Of a DNA stretch of 64,000 bases, positions 42,741 to 48,071 are shown one piece after another. Under the pieces are notes generated by a model. The model saw only the letters and a program-made list of their open reading frames with translations, did no database searches and had not been told where the DNA came from. Both the position numbers and the translations under genes were made by a program. How positions within the stretch are numbered: the first letter of the stretch is position 1; every line of letters starts with the position of its first letter. Source of the DNA: an uncultured Pelagibacteraceae bacterium (GTDB lineage Bacteria > Pseudomonadota > Alphaproteobacteria > Pelagibacterales > Pelagibacteraceae); assembly GCA_902567765.1 (NCBI GenBank), contig CACFNI010000002.1:62001-126000 (forward strand), read 5' to 3'.

Positions 42741-43061
42741 TTATTTTGACATTGGCGTAGCTCCAGTCTCTAGACTGATGATTTTTCCTTCTTTATATTT
42801 ATAAACTGCCATTACAGCCTCAACATTTCCATCATCAAAAGTAACAAATGAATGGTGTATACCTACTTCATTATTTTCGTATACCACTCTTGTCTTATCT
42901 TGTTTAATATCACCACTCATTGCCCACTTAATTACATCTGATTTTCCTAAAGTATTACCTGATTTATGCATAGTAAATTTAAAATCATCATGCAAAAGTT
43001 GATTCATAGATGCTTCATCTTTATTTTTTATTGCATCAGTATATTTTTGTAACATAGACAT
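42741..43061 (-). CDS. SnoaL/NTF2-like protein
   Basis: A 106-aa protein of the NTF2-like cone fold. The pattern MLQKYTDAIKNKDEASMNQLLHDDFKFTMHKSG, then VIKWAMSGDI and FVTFDDGNVEAVMAVYKYKEGKI, matches small SnoaL-like proteins. Such proteins may be isomerases, hydrolases or stand-alone binding domains. It is one of two NTF2-like proteins in the run at 42.2-44.8 kb (the other at 44386). It is three bases after the DUF1330 gene. Confidence 0.8.
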   Translation of the reverse strand: MSMLQKYTDAIKNKDEASMNQLLHDDFKFTMHKSGNTLGKSDVIKWAMSGDIKQDKTRVVYENNEVGIHHSFVTFDDGNVEAVMAVYKYKEGKIISLETGATPMSK

Positions 43062-43063
43062 AT

Positions 43064-43351
43064 TTATACTCCTTTTATTATTATTAAATTACCCTCAGAG
43101 TTTTCTACTCTTAAATTTTTGATTTGATTGTATTCATCTGAGTTATACCATTCCAAAGCTCTTTCATAGCTTGGAAATTTTATTATTACATTTCTTGTAA
43201 AATCCCATTTACCCTCTAATGACTTAAATTCTCCTGCTCTCACAAGATATTCACCTCCATACTTTTTTACAGTTTCTGGAACTTTATTTGCATAGTCTTT
43301 AAAACCATCTTTCTTTTTTAAGTTAACTTGAGCTATAATATAACCAGTCAT
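43064..43351 (-). CDS. DUF1330 family protein
   Basis: A 95-aa protein of the DUF1330 family, a small ferredoxin-like dimeric alpha/beta barrel of unknown function. Hallmarks are YIIAQVNLKKKDGFKDYANKVPETVKKYGGEYLVRAG and IKFPSYERALEWYNSDEYNQIKNLR. It overlaps the upstream GYD gene by one base, so both dimeric alpha/beta barrel types are co-translated here. Enzymatic activity is not known. Confidence 0.9.
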   Translation of the reverse strand: MTGYIIAQVNLKKKDGFKDYANKVPETVKKYGGEYLVRAGEFKSLEGKWDFTRNVIIKFPSYERALEWYNSDEYNQIKNLRVENSEGNLIIIKGV

Positions 43352-43674
43352 TATTTGCCAGGTTTAATAACCGTATTTGCAGCATTAGCAGCATTTTGAA
43401 AAGCTTTATTATAATCTATAACTTCATGCACCATTAAATCATCCATAAGGCCAGAATTTTTAAAAGCTATTTTTAAGGCAACGGCTTGCTCGTATTCACC
43501 CTCAACACAAGAAATTACGTCAAATCTACCCCTTACCCACTCGTAAGAAATAAGTTTTAAACCAGCTGCTTCTGTTACCTTTTTTGTAGATGCGAATCTG
43601 TCTGCAGTTGGTTCATTCTGCATTCTCTTCATTAACTCTCCACTTATTTTACCAATTAGATAAAACTTAGCCAT
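43351..43674 (-). CDS. GYD domain protein (second paralogue)
   Basis: A 107-aa GYD-family protein: AKFYLIGKISGELMKRM at the start and EWVRGRFDVISCVEGEYEQAVALKIAFKNSGLMDDLMVHEV in the centre. The GYD turn reads GRFDV. It is clearly related to the gene at 28232-28555, with the same length and same closing lysine/glycine tail. A strong AAGGAGG ribosome site precedes it. Its neighbours are DUF1330 and a secreted protein; no activity is known. Confidence 0.85.
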   Translation of the reverse strand: MAKFYLIGKISGELMKRMQNEPTADRFASTKKVTEAAGLKLISYEWVRGRFDVISCVEGEYEQAVALKIAFKNSGLMDDLMVHEVIDYNKAFQNAANAANTVIKPGK

Positions 43675-43686
43675 GTATCCTCCTTT

Positions 43687-44064
43687 TTAGTATAAAGTTT
43701 GCACAACTTTTTCTACTCGTTCTTTACCATTTGGAATTGTCTTCTCTAAAAATGCATGACAACTATCAGTCAACTCTTTGTCATACTTAGAACCATAATG
43801 TTTATCTACAGCTTTATTAGTTCCTTCGTCCCAATCTTTCTCTTTAATACCAATCTCTAAAGCATATGTTTTCCATACTTTAACTGATGATATAGATTTT
43901 TCTTTCATGCTGTATTCAAAAGTCTCTCCCGAAGGTAAAAAATAGTTAGCCATGTATATACCAACACAATCCCAGGCTTTTTCCATATCTTTCTTGCTTA
44001 AATCTCCTGCATTGGCAGAGTTAATAAAAACGATACTAAATAAAACCAAAAATAATTTTTTCAT
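43687..44064 (-). CDS. Small secreted hypothetical protein
   Basis: I place the start at 44064, where MKKLFLVLFSIVFINSANAG forms a clean signal peptide with cleavage after NANAG; the ORF-track start at 44115 adds 17 unlikely residues overlapping the upstream gene. The mature part (about 105 residues) has two cysteines (AWDCVGIYM and TDSCHAFLEKT) that could form a disulfide, and is helical. I do not recognise a family. It belongs to the same tight operon as the GYD and DUF1330 genes. Confidence 0.75.
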   Translation of the reverse strand: MKKLFLVLFSIVFINSANAGDLSKKDMEKAWDCVGIYMANYFLPSGETFEYSMKEKSISSVKVWKTYALEIGIKEKDWDEGTNKAVDKHYGSKYDKELTDSCHAFLEKTIPNGKERVEKVVQTLY

Positions 44065-44066
44065 AA

Positions 44067-44357
44067 TTAAACCTTTACTTTCGATAATTCCCATAGTTGT
44101 ACATTCTCTACACATTCAGCATAAATAGCTTTAGCTGTTGGATTATTTCCAGCAACAAATTCTTTCATTCCTGCTTCATTATGAACTGAAACCTTAAACA
44201 TAATACCACTTTTATCTGGCTTCATGGCTCCAATAGTTTTTTCTGGATAAGCAACACTTTTTCTTACTTCCATGCCTTCATCAGACTGCATCCATCCCAT
44301 AAAAGTTTCTAGTTTACCTTCTTTAAGGTTAATTAAAGCTAACATTTCTTTTTCCAT
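44067..44357 (-). CDS. Small hypothetical protein, possible dimeric alpha/beta barrel
   Basis: A 96-aa soluble protein, MEKEMLALINLKEGKLETFMGWMQSDEGMEVRKS..., with no cysteine pair, membrane segment or known motif beyond a beta-alpha-beta pattern like that of the neighbouring GYD and DUF1330 proteins. A good ribosome site (AAGGAGAAAAAA) precedes the ATG. Position two bases upstream of the secreted protein gene places it in the operon. The resemblance to dimeric alpha/beta barrel folds is a guess. Confidence 0.75.
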   Translation of the reverse strand: MEKEMLALINLKEGKLETFMGWMQSDEGMEVRKSVAYPEKTIGAMKPDKSGIMFKVSVHNEAGMKEFVAGNNPTAKAIYAECVENVQLWELSKVKV

Positions 44358-44385
44358 TTTTTTCTCCTTGATTGTTTTAAAATGG

Positions 44386-44769
44386 TTATTTTTTCATAGC
44401 ATTAAACATGCTAAGAGTGTCATCAAAAGTCATCATAATCTTAGTTTTTCCTTCATCACTAACTTCAAAATAATGACCAAACATAGTATCCATGTTGTCA
44501 GCAGTTGCATGTACTCTAACAAATACTTTATTGCCTTCACTGATCATATCTAAAATTTTTAAATGAAAATTTGGCCATGTTGCTGGAATTTTTGACATCG
44601 CAGCCATCATAGCTTGTTTACCTTTGTGAACTCCTGACAATGGGTGCACACCTTCTTTACCTGGAAATGTCCATACAATATTATCATCAATCATTTCATT
44701 AAAAAAAGTCTCCATATCGCCTTTACCAAAAAGCTCATATGCTTTTCTCGTTTGTTCTTTTACATCCAT
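44386..44769 (-). CDS. SnoaL/NTF2-like protein
   Basis: A 127-aa NTF2-fold protein. The start at 44769 (MDVKEQTRKAYELFGKGDMETFFNEMIDDNIVWTFPG) has AAAGGAGAAAT just upstream and matches the family, whereas the track start at 44859 runs into the cysK end. The block GVHKGKQAMMAAM and FGHYFEVSDEGKTKIMMTFDDTLSMFN are typical of SnoaL-like proteins related to ketosteroid isomerase. It is the first gene of the small-protein operon at 42.2-44.8 kb. Confidence 0.85.
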   Translation of the reverse strand: MDVKEQTRKAYELFGKGDMETFFNEMIDDNIVWTFPGKEGVHPLSGVHKGKQAMMAAMSKIPATWPNFHLKILDMISEGNKVFVRVHATADNMDTMFGHYFEVSDEGKTKIMMTFDDTLSMFNAMKK

Positions 44770-44849
44770 ATTTCTCCTTTGATTAATAGTATTTAAACTT
44801 AAAAAATTAAGAATATGTAAAGATTTTATTACAATGCAGGTATGCGGTC

Positions 44850-45851
44850 TTATATCCAATTAGGAAATGGTAAACCTTTTTCCTGAAGAAATTTTTTGTT
44901 GAACAGCTTAGAGTTGTATTTGTCTGATTTGTCGCAGAGTATTGTTACTATAGTTTTACCTGGTCCTAACTCTTTACCTAGTTTAATAGCGCCAGCTATA
45001 TTTACTCCACAACTAGTTCCTAAACTTAATCCTTCATTTTGTATTAAATCAAAAATTACAGGTAATGATTCATGATCACTAATTGAAAAGGCTCCATCTA
45101 TTTTAGCTTCAGCAAAATTTGCGGTTATTCTGCTCGATCCGATACCCTCAGTTATTGATCCACCTTCACTTTTTAATTCTCCATTTGTGATATAATTATA
45201 AAGAGAGGAGCCTGACGGGTCTGATAAATAAATTTTTATATCTTTATTCTTTTCCTTTAAATAACTACTTACCCCTCCAATCGTTCCTCCTGTGCCTGAA
45301 GAACATACAAAGGCGTCTACCTTACCGTCAGTTTGGTTCCAAATTTCTGGTCCTGTTGTCTCATAATGACCTTTGGCATTTGCCGTATTATCAAACTGAT
45401 TTGCCCAAACAACACCATGGTTATTAGTACTTTTTAATTCCTCAGCTAACCTTCCAGCAACTTTTACATAGTTTCCATCGTCTTTATATGGTTTTGGTGG
45501 AACCAACCTTAAGTCGGCTCCAATATTTTTTAGCATATCTTTTTTTTCTTGAGTTTGATTGTCATTCATTACAATCACGGTTTTATAACCAATAGAATTT
45601 CCAATAAGACATAATCCAATTCCTGTATTCCCTGCGGTTCCTTCGACTATTGTTCCTCCTTTAGAGATTAATTTTTTTTCTTCTGCGTCTTTGATTAAAG
45701 CTAATGCAGCTCTATCTTTTACAGATCCACCAGGATTTAGATATTCTGCTTTTCCATAAATATTACATCCAGTTATTTCAGATGCAGCTTTAAGTTTTAT
45801 TAATGGTGTATTTCCAATGCCCTCTACAAAATTATTTTGAGCATTTTTCAT
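44850..45851 (-). CDS. cysK: Cysteine synthase
   Basis: A 333-aa PLP enzyme that joins sulfide with O-acetylserine. I set the start at 45851 (MKNAQNNFVEGIGNTPLIKL), because the track start at 46013 overlaps the cysE coding region by 160 bases with non-family residues. The PLP lysine lies in NPGGSVKDRAAL, and the phosphate-binding loop is SSGTGGTIGG. The preceding gene is cysE, so the pair makes cysteine from serine and sulfide. The second-half sequence GTSCGVNIAGAIKLGKEL is as expected. Confidence 0.93.
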   Translation of the reverse strand: MKNAQNNFVEGIGNTPLIKLKAASEITGCNIYGKAEYLNPGGSVKDRAALALIKDAEEKKLISKGGTIVEGTAGNTGIGLCLIGNSIGYKTVIVMNDNQTQEKKDMLKNIGADLRLVPPKPYKDDGNYVKVAGRLAEELKSTNNHGVVWANQFDNTANAKGHYETTGPEIWNQTDGKVDAFVCSSGTGGTIGGVSSYLKEKNKDIKIYLSDPSGSSLYNYITNGELKSEGGSITEGIGSSRITANFAEAKIDGAFSISDHESLPVIFDLIQNEGLSLGTSCGVNIAGAIKLGKELGPGKTIVTILCDKSDKYNSKLFNKKFLQEKGLPFPNWI

Positions 45852-45852
45852 T

Positions 45853-46434
45853 TTAATTATTATTACTTTCTTTTGTAATTCCATATGGCTTGAAAGTTTC
45901 ATCACCAGATGAAGCTTCTCCAACATTTTTTGCTGGTATACCAACCATAACAGAATTTTCTTGAACATCTTTTGTAACCACAGCATTAGCACCGATCTTA
46001 GCATTGCTGCCAATAACTACTGGTCCTAAAATTTGCGCACCCGATCCAACTACGACATTATCCATCAATGTTGGATGTCTTTTAGTATTTCTTTGATCGT
46101 CTGAATTAATACTGGGAGATATACCACCAAGAGTAACAGCATGATAGATGGTAACATTATCTCCTATCTCAGAAGTTTCACCTATAACAACACCCATACC
46201 GTGATCTATAAATAAATTTTTACCAATTTTAGCTTTAGGATGGATTTCTATACCAGTTAAAAATCTTGAAAATTGTGAAATCATTCTTGCCACCAAATCA
46301 AACTTTGCTAATGAAAAAAAATTTGCGATCTTATGAAAAAATACAGCTTTGACACCAGGGTAAGTTAAAATTACACTTAGCTTAGATTTTGCAGCGGGGT
46401 CTCTTTTAATAATTGATTCTAAATAATCGTTCAT
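45853..46434 (-). CDS. cysE: Serine O-acetyltransferase
   Basis: A 193-aa left-handed beta-helix acyltransferase of the short EpsC/CysE type. Hexapeptide repeats start near [40 protein letters not shown] and continue to [26 protein letters not shown]. The product, O-acetylserine, feeds the adjacent cysteine synthase (one base apart). No long N-terminal regulatory domain is present. The final residues do not match the usual cysteine-feedback tail closely, so regulation is open. Confidence 0.93.
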
Positions 46435-46463: not shown

Positions 46464-46583
46464 CTATTTATTACAACAACAACTAGTTTCTTTGGGCATA
46501 CAATCGCACAATTTAATTCCATCACAGTGGCAAGCATCATTTATGCAATTAGCACATTTTAATTTTTCATTGTCGCATGACAT
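46464..46583 (-). CDS. Cysteine-rich metallothionein-like peptide, 39 aa
   Basis: Not in the ORF track. ATG at 46583 on the minus strand opens a 40-codon frame ending at TAG 46464-46466. Ten of 39 residues are Cys, in the order C-x6-C-x2-C-x4-C-x-C-x5-C-x-C-x6-CCC, plus one His beside the fourth Cys. This density and the CxC and CCC groups suggest a metal-binding metallothionein-like peptide. It matches no family that I recognise. It sits between the MBL hydrolase and cysE genes, on the same strand. A palindromic element lies just upstream. Confidence 0.6.
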   Translation of the reverse strand: MSCDNEKLKCANCINDACHCDGIKLCDCMPKETSCCCNK

Positions 46584-46605
46584 ATTAAAAATATAGGTAT
46601 AAAAT

Positions 46606-46631
46606 GGTAAATTACAATAAGTAAATTTACC
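46606..46631 (-). promoter_or_regulatory. Palindromic element upstream of the cysteine-rich peptide
   Basis: GGTAAATTAC (46606-46615) is followed by GTAAATTTACC (46621-46631); the two form an inverted repeat missing one base, and GTAAATTTAC is itself a perfect 10-bp palindrome. It lies 23-48 bases upstream of the peptide's start on the minus strand, in an AT-rich gap, where a dimeric repressor site could be. No specific regulator is identified. Confidence 0.4.
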
Positions 46632-46634
46632 TAA

Positions 46635-47327
46635 TTATAACTGATCTAGTGTAACACCTTTTAAATTTGCTGGAACTGCAACATCCATCATTTTTGGGTT
46701 TGCAAGTTTTAGATTGTTCATTATTTCAATATATTGATCAACACTATCTACTTGAAGTCTAGGATTATTATTTTTTTCATCCCCGATAGTTGAAAATTTT
46801 TTACCGTTATAATCATGTGCTGGGTAGACTATAGTTTTTTCAGGTAGTTTAAGTAATTTGTTAAAAAGTGAGTCATACTGAGTTTTTGCACTTCCATTTT
46901 GAAAATCAGTTCTACCTGTGCCGTTTATTAAAAGAGTATCACCTGTAAAAACTCTATCGTTCATTAAAAAGCTATAGGAGCAATCAGTATGACCTGGTGT
47001 ATAAATTGTTTTAAGTTCTATTTTATCTATTTCAATTTTATCATCTTCTTTTACTTTTAAATCGACTACTTCAGATTTTGATTGCTCCCCCATAATTTTT
47101 GTGCAGTTTGTTCTTTTACTTAATTCGTTAAGTGCAGTTATATGATCTGCATGAATGTGTGTATCAATTACCTTCACTAATTTAAGATCTAATTCTTGCA
47201 GGATTTTTAAATATTCCTCAGTTTTTTCTAAAACTGGATCAATAATTAAAGCTTCCCTTCCTCTATCACTAGCAATGATGTACGTGTAGGTTGAAGAAAC
47301 ATCGTCAAATAATTGATTGAAAATCAT
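46635..47327 (-). CDS. MBL-fold hydrolase, persulfide dioxygenase (ETHE1)-like
   Basis: A 230-aa metallo-beta-lactamase-fold protein. The metal motif THIHADH gives H57, H59, D61 and H62; TPGHTDCSYSF and VYPAHDYNGK add the other ligands. The end DVAVPANLKGV resembles the ETHE1/persulfide dioxygenase C-terminus rather than glyoxalase II. Such enzymes oxidise glutathione persulfide to sulfite, which would fit sulfur handling elsewhere in the window. It is 51 bases upstream of the cysteine-rich peptide and divergent from the peroxiredoxin. Confidence 0.82.
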   Translation of the reverse strand: MIFNQLFDDVSSTYTYIIASDRGREALIIDPVLEKTEEYLKILQELDLKLVKVIDTHIHADHITALNELSKRTNCTKIMGEQSKSEVVDLKVKEDDKIEIDKIELKTIYTPGHTDCSYSFLMNDRVFTGDTLLINGTGRTDFQNGSAKTQYDSLFNKLLKLPEKTIVYPAHDYNGKKFSTIGDEKNNNPRLQVDSVDQYIEIMNNLKLANPKMMDVAVPANLKGVTLDQL

Positions 47328-47408: not shown

Positions 47409-48071
47409 ATGACATTAAAAATAAATAGCCTTGCTCCAGACTTTAAAGCTCAAACTCAAGAGGGAGATATATCTTTTCATGAGTGGCTAGGAGATAGTTG
47501 GGGGGTATTATTCTCACACCCAAAAGATTTCACACCAGTTTGTACTACTGAGCTTGGTGCGTTAGCAAAGATGAAACCAGAATTTGATGCTAGAAATGTT
47601 AAAGTTATTGGTTTAAGTGTTGATCCAGTTTCAGATCACGTTAAGTGGTTAGATGATATTAAAGATGTTTGTGGTATGAAACCGTCTTATCCAATTATAG
47701 CAGATGAGAAGTTAGAAGTTGCAAAACTTTATAACATGCTTGAAGGAGATGCTGGTACTACGTCAATGGGAAGAACTGCAGTAGATAATGAAACAGTGAG
47801 AACTGTTTATGTTATCAGACCTGATAAAAGAATTGGTTTGTTCTTAACTTATCCGATGACTACTGGAAGAAATTTTGGTGAGATACTAAGAGCAATAGAC
47901 TCAATGCAGCGGACTGCAAAACATAAAATTGCAACACCTGCAGATTGGAAGCCTGGTGAAAAAGTAATTATAGTTCCAAAAGTAACAAACGATGAAGCAA
48001 AAAAAATATATCCTGATGGATGGGAAACTATAAAACCATATTTAAGAAAAGTACCAGATCCACACAAGTAG
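47409..48071 (+). CDS. 1-Cys peroxiredoxin (Prx6 type)
   Basis: A 220-aa peroxiredoxin. The peroxidatic cysteine is C45 in HPKDFTPVCTTELG; the usual resolving cysteine is absent, as in the Prx6 group. The C-terminal domain continues with YPMTTGRNFGEILRAIDSMQ and the end WKPGEKVIIVPKVTNDEAKKIYPDGW. It reduces hydrogen peroxide and alkyl hydroperoxides. A clear promoter and a strong terminator flank it, so it is a single-gene transcript. Confidence 0.93.
   Translation: MTLKINSLAPDFKAQTQEGDISFHEWLGDSWGVLFSHPKDFTPVCTTELGALAKMKPEFDARNVKVIGLSVDPVSDHVKWLDDIKDVCGMKPSYPIIADEKLEVAKLYNMLEGDAGTTSMGRTAVDNETVRTVYVIRPDKRIGLFLTYPMTTGRNFGEILRAIDSMQRTAKHKIATPADWKPGEKVIIVPKVTNDEAKKIYPDGWETIKPYLRKVPDPHK

Follow-up and report, generated by a model that had tools for sequence, protein, structure and literature searches.

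Bacterial metallothioneins of the SmtA/BmtA type (PF02069) are small cysteine-rich proteins with CxC and CxxC motifs that hold a tetranuclear Zn cluster. MymT, the copper metallothionein of mycobacteria, is very small, rich in cysteine and was missed by annotation. The alpha domain of vertebrate metallothionein (PF00131) carries 11 cysteines on a short chain with CxC and CC motifs and almost no aromatic residues. Short cysteine-rich reading frames are also known in a regulatory setting: in the polycysteine leaderless sORFs of mycobacteria, cysteine-dependent ribosome pausing controls downstream genes (Canestrari et al. 2020, as presented in PMC9094748 and PMC9031893).

The DNA analysed here, hereafter the window, is a stretch of 64,000 nucleotides from an uncultured Pelagibacteraceae bacterium. 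Its minus strand carries at 46464..46583, stop codon included, a gene for a cysteine-rich peptide of 39 aa (MSCDNEKLKCANCINDACHCDGIKLCDCMPKETSCCCNK, followed by the stop), recognized by translation, orthologues and selection. Translation confirmed the intact frame with 10 cysteines that an earlier note had described at this place. A chance open reading frame was ruled out, as the second-richest short ORF of the window (25-80 aa) has only 5 cysteines, and 200 first-order Markov simulations of the window yielded at most 8 and never 10 in 39 residues.

A peptide search of 150 related genomes revealed clear relatives within the same genus. Of 397 genomes taken from across the order, 52 were positive in profile searches; these all belong to one family, and profiles placed the peptide in several genera of Pelagibacteraceae. 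A named genome collection contributed 64 loci, nearly all of them titled Pelagibacteraceae or Pelagibacter, so that the peptide family belongs to SAR11. Apart from the window's own genome, no member was detected among 588 sampled genomes (289 from the class, 299 from the phylum), and none in the viral contigs searched. The family comprises 69 distinct proteins from 78 distinct DNA sequences, plus the sequence of locus L115 (about 70 SAR11 sequences). Its members measure 36-43 aa and contain 10-12 cysteines, about a quarter to a third of all residues, arranged in CxC, CxxC and CCC motifs; aromatic residues are rare. The family pattern is MxCx4CxCx2Cx4CxCx5CxCx6CCC, normally with 11 cysteines. 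The window copy, with 10 cysteines and a histidine at position 19, has the spacing C-x6-C-x2-C-x4-C-x-C-x5-C-x-C-x6-CCC given in the earlier note. Its first x6 gap is however derived, since almost all relatives have a cysteine at the position of Leu8; the spacing therefore holds for this copy and not for the family, some subclades of which have 12 cysteines. Frame and cysteine spacing were conserved in close relatives, and the proposal of a new family thus survived the comparison.

Several variants of this pattern exist. A 36-aa subtype (L042-L047 and L115; for example MACNNSHCKCKNCSCDRCVCKNCDCKPSSENCCCNK) combines an extra cysteine, 12 in total, with a three-residue deletion, and part of it was missed by the first profile. 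Other variants differ in the tail, which either gains a fourth terminal cysteine (CCCC) or ends right after the run (CCC-stop). Both the 36-aa subtype and the tail variants occupy the same syntenic place and are thus orthologues. The CCC run is near-universal across the family, with L069 as the exception. At this locus (L069:4001-4120) the tail reads SYCCYCC instead of SCCC, so that the run is broken and the number of cysteines kept.

The family had no relative in Pfam, NCBIfam, PHROGs or the sequences of the PDB. The best PDB matches, to mucin and LDL-receptor modules (E values of 0.1 and worse), were discarded as chance similarity among cysteine-rich sequences. PF02069 (cut-off 33 bits) matched neither P0001 nor any of 49 family members at E values up to 10; the same search found the positive control SmtA (75.2 bits, 4.5e-21) and also human MT2. 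Profiles revealed no similarity to any metallothionein family, and PF02069 was not found in 41 SAR11 genomes, with Synechococcus elongatus positive as control. With SmtA/BmtA the peptide shares small size, richness in cysteine, the CxC and CxxC motifs and an expected tetranuclear cluster, but it is shorter, differs in spacing and is devoid of the zinc-finger-like region with histidine and aromatic residues. MymT is likewise tiny, cysteine-rich and overlooked by annotation, but no similarity of sequence pattern was seen; MymT itself matches no Pfam model, which limits the comparison. The earlier note had set the peptide apart from the known bacterial metallothioneins by spacing and length. With the vertebrate alpha domain the peptide has the 11 cysteines on a short chain, the CxC and CC motifs and the scarcity of aromatics in common, but there is no homology and the order of motifs differs. 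AlphaFold gave no confident fold (pLDDT 72, pTM 0.34) and Foldseek no structural match in the PDB; a missing predicted fold is to be expected of an apo metallothionein and is not positive evidence for one. This is a real, unannotated gene, and its family is new to Pfam, NCBIfam, PHROGs and the PDB as searched; a limited search of the open-access literature found no paper on it.

Selection acts on the encoded protein. In 72 sequences aligned without gaps, each cysteine column was invariant or had a single exception, even though both TGT and TGC were used at every cysteine position. Among 27 disjoint close pairs, cysteine codons displayed 24 synonymous versus 2 nonsynonymous changes (omega 0.02-0.03), the low dN/dS for which the earlier note had proposed to look, and non-cysteine codons had an omega of 0.41-0.47. 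Strong conservation was also found at N5, K7, N12, D16, P30 and E31. As the cysteines are kept despite the exchange of TGT and TGC, and other residues are constrained as well, it is a protein and not a random frame that is under selection. Two marks of the metallothionein class are found here: a small chain with few aromatics whose cysteines are rich in CxC, CxxC and CC motifs, and a conserved cysteine array under purifying selection. Judged by its sequence anatomy, the peptide is metallothionein-like, and a member of neither PF02069 nor PF00131. The suggestion of a new metallothionein-like family thus stands in part, for a conserved, database-unknown gene of metallothionein-like composition; within this family the copy in the window is atypical.

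We consider it most probable (roughly 0.6) that the gene encodes a genuine metallothionein-like thiolate peptide that wraps a cluster of soft metal ions, metal binding being predicted. The 10-12 invariantly spaced cysteines, on a chain with no conventional hydrophobic core, would enclose the thiolate cluster. Eleven ligands would most naturally give a stoichiometry of M4Cys11, as in the vertebrate alpha domain, and an M4 cluster is probably what the peptide would hold; in the window copy, the ligands would be 10 cysteines and His19. Histidine is a usual substitute ligand in bacterial metallothioneins. His19 occurs in three sequences only, namely the window copy and its nearest relatives L080 (1082-1198) and L086 (4001-4117), and two of the three have lost one cysteine, the window copy by C8L and L086 by C20S. 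With the exception of L069 and its rearranged tail, all other members of the 37-40-aa type have kept their cysteines. Because the members that lost a cysteine fall among the carriers of His19, this residue may replace the lost ligand, which in these three related sequences is suggestive of a metal cluster with some 11 ligands.

The usual gene order at the locus is a divergent 1-Cys peroxiredoxin, a metallo-beta-lactamase (MBL)-fold gene, the peptide, cysE and cysK. In the window, the peroxiredoxin (Pfam AhpC-TSA and 1-cysPrx_C; synteny) is encoded on the plus strand at 47409..48071, and the other four genes of this order lie on the minus strand. The MBL-fold gene at 46635..47327, which is persulfide-dioxygenase/hydroxyacylglutathione-hydrolase-like (Lactamase_B; synteny), is located about 54 nt upstream of the peptide. 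The serine O-acetyltransferase gene cysE at 45853..46434 (TIGR01172 and NF041874 of NCBIfam above cut-off; synteny) follows 29 nt past the peptide stop, and the cysteine synthase A gene cysK is found at 44850..45848 (NCBIfam NF007989 above cut-off; a further search matched the same stretch). Synteny thus bore out the sulfur-gene context to which the earlier note had pointed. The MBL-fold gene scored below the curated cut-offs (GloB, 115 of 200.8 bits; Blh, 102 of 625), and its identity as a persulfide dioxygenase (PDO) is therefore likely only. Between the peroxiredoxin and the MBL-fold gene, L065 and L098 have an SQR-like gene, resulting in the order SQR-PDO-peptide-cysE-cysK. The insert adds 1.3 kb; judged by spacing, an equal extra length is present at the same point in L073, L074, L085, L087, L088 and L094. 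No metal transporter or metal-responsive regulator was seen adjoining the peptide, which speaks against the metallothionein reading, as does the missing similarity to metallothionein families.

Beside the sulfide and persulfide enzymes and cysE-cysK, a metallothionein-like peptide would buffer Zn, Cu or Cd, and perhaps sulfane sulfur as well. Alternatively, the cysteine array might store sulfane sulfur and relay it between SQR, persulfide dioxygenase and cysteine synthesis. The usual PDO-like neighbour and the SQR-like gene in several loci (such as L065 and L098) speak for such a carrier, as does the reported binding of sulfane sulfur by metallothionein-3 (PMC12618007). However, the peptide is also found with no PDO-like gene adjacent (L030, L034-L037 and L039), the PDO identity is itself uncertain at scores below the curated cut-offs, and a density of CxC and CxxC motifs as seen here is what metal thiolate clusters need. 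We regard a dedicated thiol or persulfide carrier as very improbable.

Both ends of the gene carry nucleotide signals. Upstream, a promoter-like site on the minus strand (TTGTAA-16 nt-TATATT, 46590..46617; a consensus match only) ends 6 nt before the ATG; a consensus scan of the region gave 4 sites versus 2.8 expected. Across the family, 38 of 69 unique members have a -10-like hexamer (at least 5 of 6 matches) 4-9 nt before the ATG, compared with 5 of 70 genes from the window and 15% of upstream sequences after shuffling. Given this enrichment, a leaderless or near-leaderless transcript is a plausible prediction. The peptide would then be expressed from its own leaderless promoter, probably as the first cistron of peptide-cysE-cysK.

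Downstream, a family hairpin of 19 nt (46466..46484, minus strand) covers codon 34, the CCC run, the last two codons and the first base of the stop. Pairing was observed in 88.3% of cells versus 82.9 +/- 1.0 in shuffles that keep relatedness in (0 of 500), with 17 doubly changed cells compared to 7.3 in the shuffles; slid registers were 23-68% paired. Under random synonymous codons, 5.55 +/- 0.19 of the 8 pairs would form, and 7.06 were observed. Together with the exchanges between the two arms (AGT..AAC, AGC..AGC, ACT..AAG, ATT..AAA, AAT..AAT), the synonymous-codon result argues for a real structure. In the window copy the hairpin forms only weakly, with 7 of 8 pairs, G-U included, and poor folding (z = +1.5), and it is missing in the CCCC-tail and CCC-stop clades. 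A general attenuator fold between the CCC run and cysE was unsupported, with a mean z of only -0.59 for the region, and only the 19-nt hairpin stood up. No intrinsic terminator was found in the window, and a sub-threshold snoRNA match in Rfam was taken as chance.

The peptide's place ahead of cysE-cysK and its 3' hairpin together hint at regulation at the RNA level, which we counted against the preferred reading. The main rival, by analogy with the mycobacterial sORFs, is that the frame would be a cysteine-responsive leader: scarce Cys-tRNA would slow its translation, the hairpin at the CCC run would control cysE-cysK, and the peptide would be a by-product. As those sORFs are presented in the two sources named above, the likeness lies in a short ORF with a run of cysteine codons, a promoter-like site near the start and a usual place before cysteine-synthesis genes; the differences are the fixed cysteine spacing over the full length, the constrained residues, the retention without cysE-cysK and a hairpin that is not universal. 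A leader agrees with the gap of 25-44 nt that separates the peptide from cysE in most loci, the -10-like hexamer close to the start codon, the run of three or four cysteines at the end and the covariation of a hairpin over that run beyond synonymous recoding. Yet the dispersed cysteines are as invariant as those of the run, other residues are constrained, the window copy and the two tail clades named above have a weak hairpin or none, and genomes without the peptide retain cysE-cysK.

Loci from which cysE has gone weigh further against a leader. In L036, L037 and L039 msrB follows the peptide at a distance of 3 nt, and in L079 the next gene is a small ABM-like one that has a Shine-Dalgarno-like site of its own. 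Queries that detected cysE and cysK in control genomes found neither in these four; the four are partial (70-80% complete where stated), but the locus itself clearly has no cysE or cysK. The cysteine pattern is intact in all four, which represent two lineages, and L079 keeps a perfect hairpin with a compensatory pair combination of its own. Neither the peptide nor, from L079, the hairpin thus depends on cysE-cysK, and a place before a cysteine-responsive operon is not obligatory, as msrB or an unrelated gene can follow instead. The cysE-cysK context claimed in the earlier note is accordingly usual and not obligatory. On this evidence, we hold a leader with a by-product peptide to be improbable. 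The lineages of L036, L037, L039 and L079 are possible cysteine auxotrophs.

The hairpin may serve the peptide's own mRNA, in its stability or as its 3' end, and might in addition couple it to cysE; a secondary regulatory role for the 3' end of the gene is possible. A peptide could then have both functions: metallothionein-like as a protein, its terminal cysteine codons and hairpin would also tie cysE-cysK expression to cysteine supply. Coupling is plausible in that a peptide of about 28% cysteine is a cysteine sink; protein and RNA signals coexist in most clades, and the usual gene order is peptide-cysE-cysK. Against it, the hairpin is not universal, that of L079 remains without cysE-cysK and may only protect or end the mRNA, and cysE and cysK of strain HTCC1062 were not induced by sulfur limitation (PMC5069961), an observation that we take as background. 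Such a double function strikes us as unlikely, though less so than a pure leader.

The history of the gene was followed in a cysE tree of 97 rows, a quick tree with many weak forks, midpoint-rooted for drawing and with hand-picked peptide-less rows. It contained three changes of peptide presence, a minimum count, with the peptide in the deepest branches. This suggests that the peptide is ancestral and was lost about three times, if the direction is read correctly. At peptide-less loci, the MBL-fold gene stands beside cysE with a gap of 23-43 nt, or other genes lie upstream.

SAR11 is the most abundant group of heterotrophs in the surface ocean. Should these peptides bind metals or sulfane sulfur, a gene that size filters overlook would matter to how these streamlined bacteria handle trace metals and sulfur. 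More speculatively, an ancient new SAR11 metallothionein family could use its terminal cysteine codons and the overlapping hairpin to gauge cysteine and set the output of cysE-cysK. We think this unlikely, but one short gene would then be both a cysteine-rich sink and a gauge for cysteine synthesis, and the family offers a direct test case for tying a cysteine-rich peptide to cysteine synthesis.

Downstream of cysK, the window has a cluster of small ABM/SnoaL-like proteins (42741-44859), named by sequence appearance only. Relatives of these proteins directly follow the peptide in L079.
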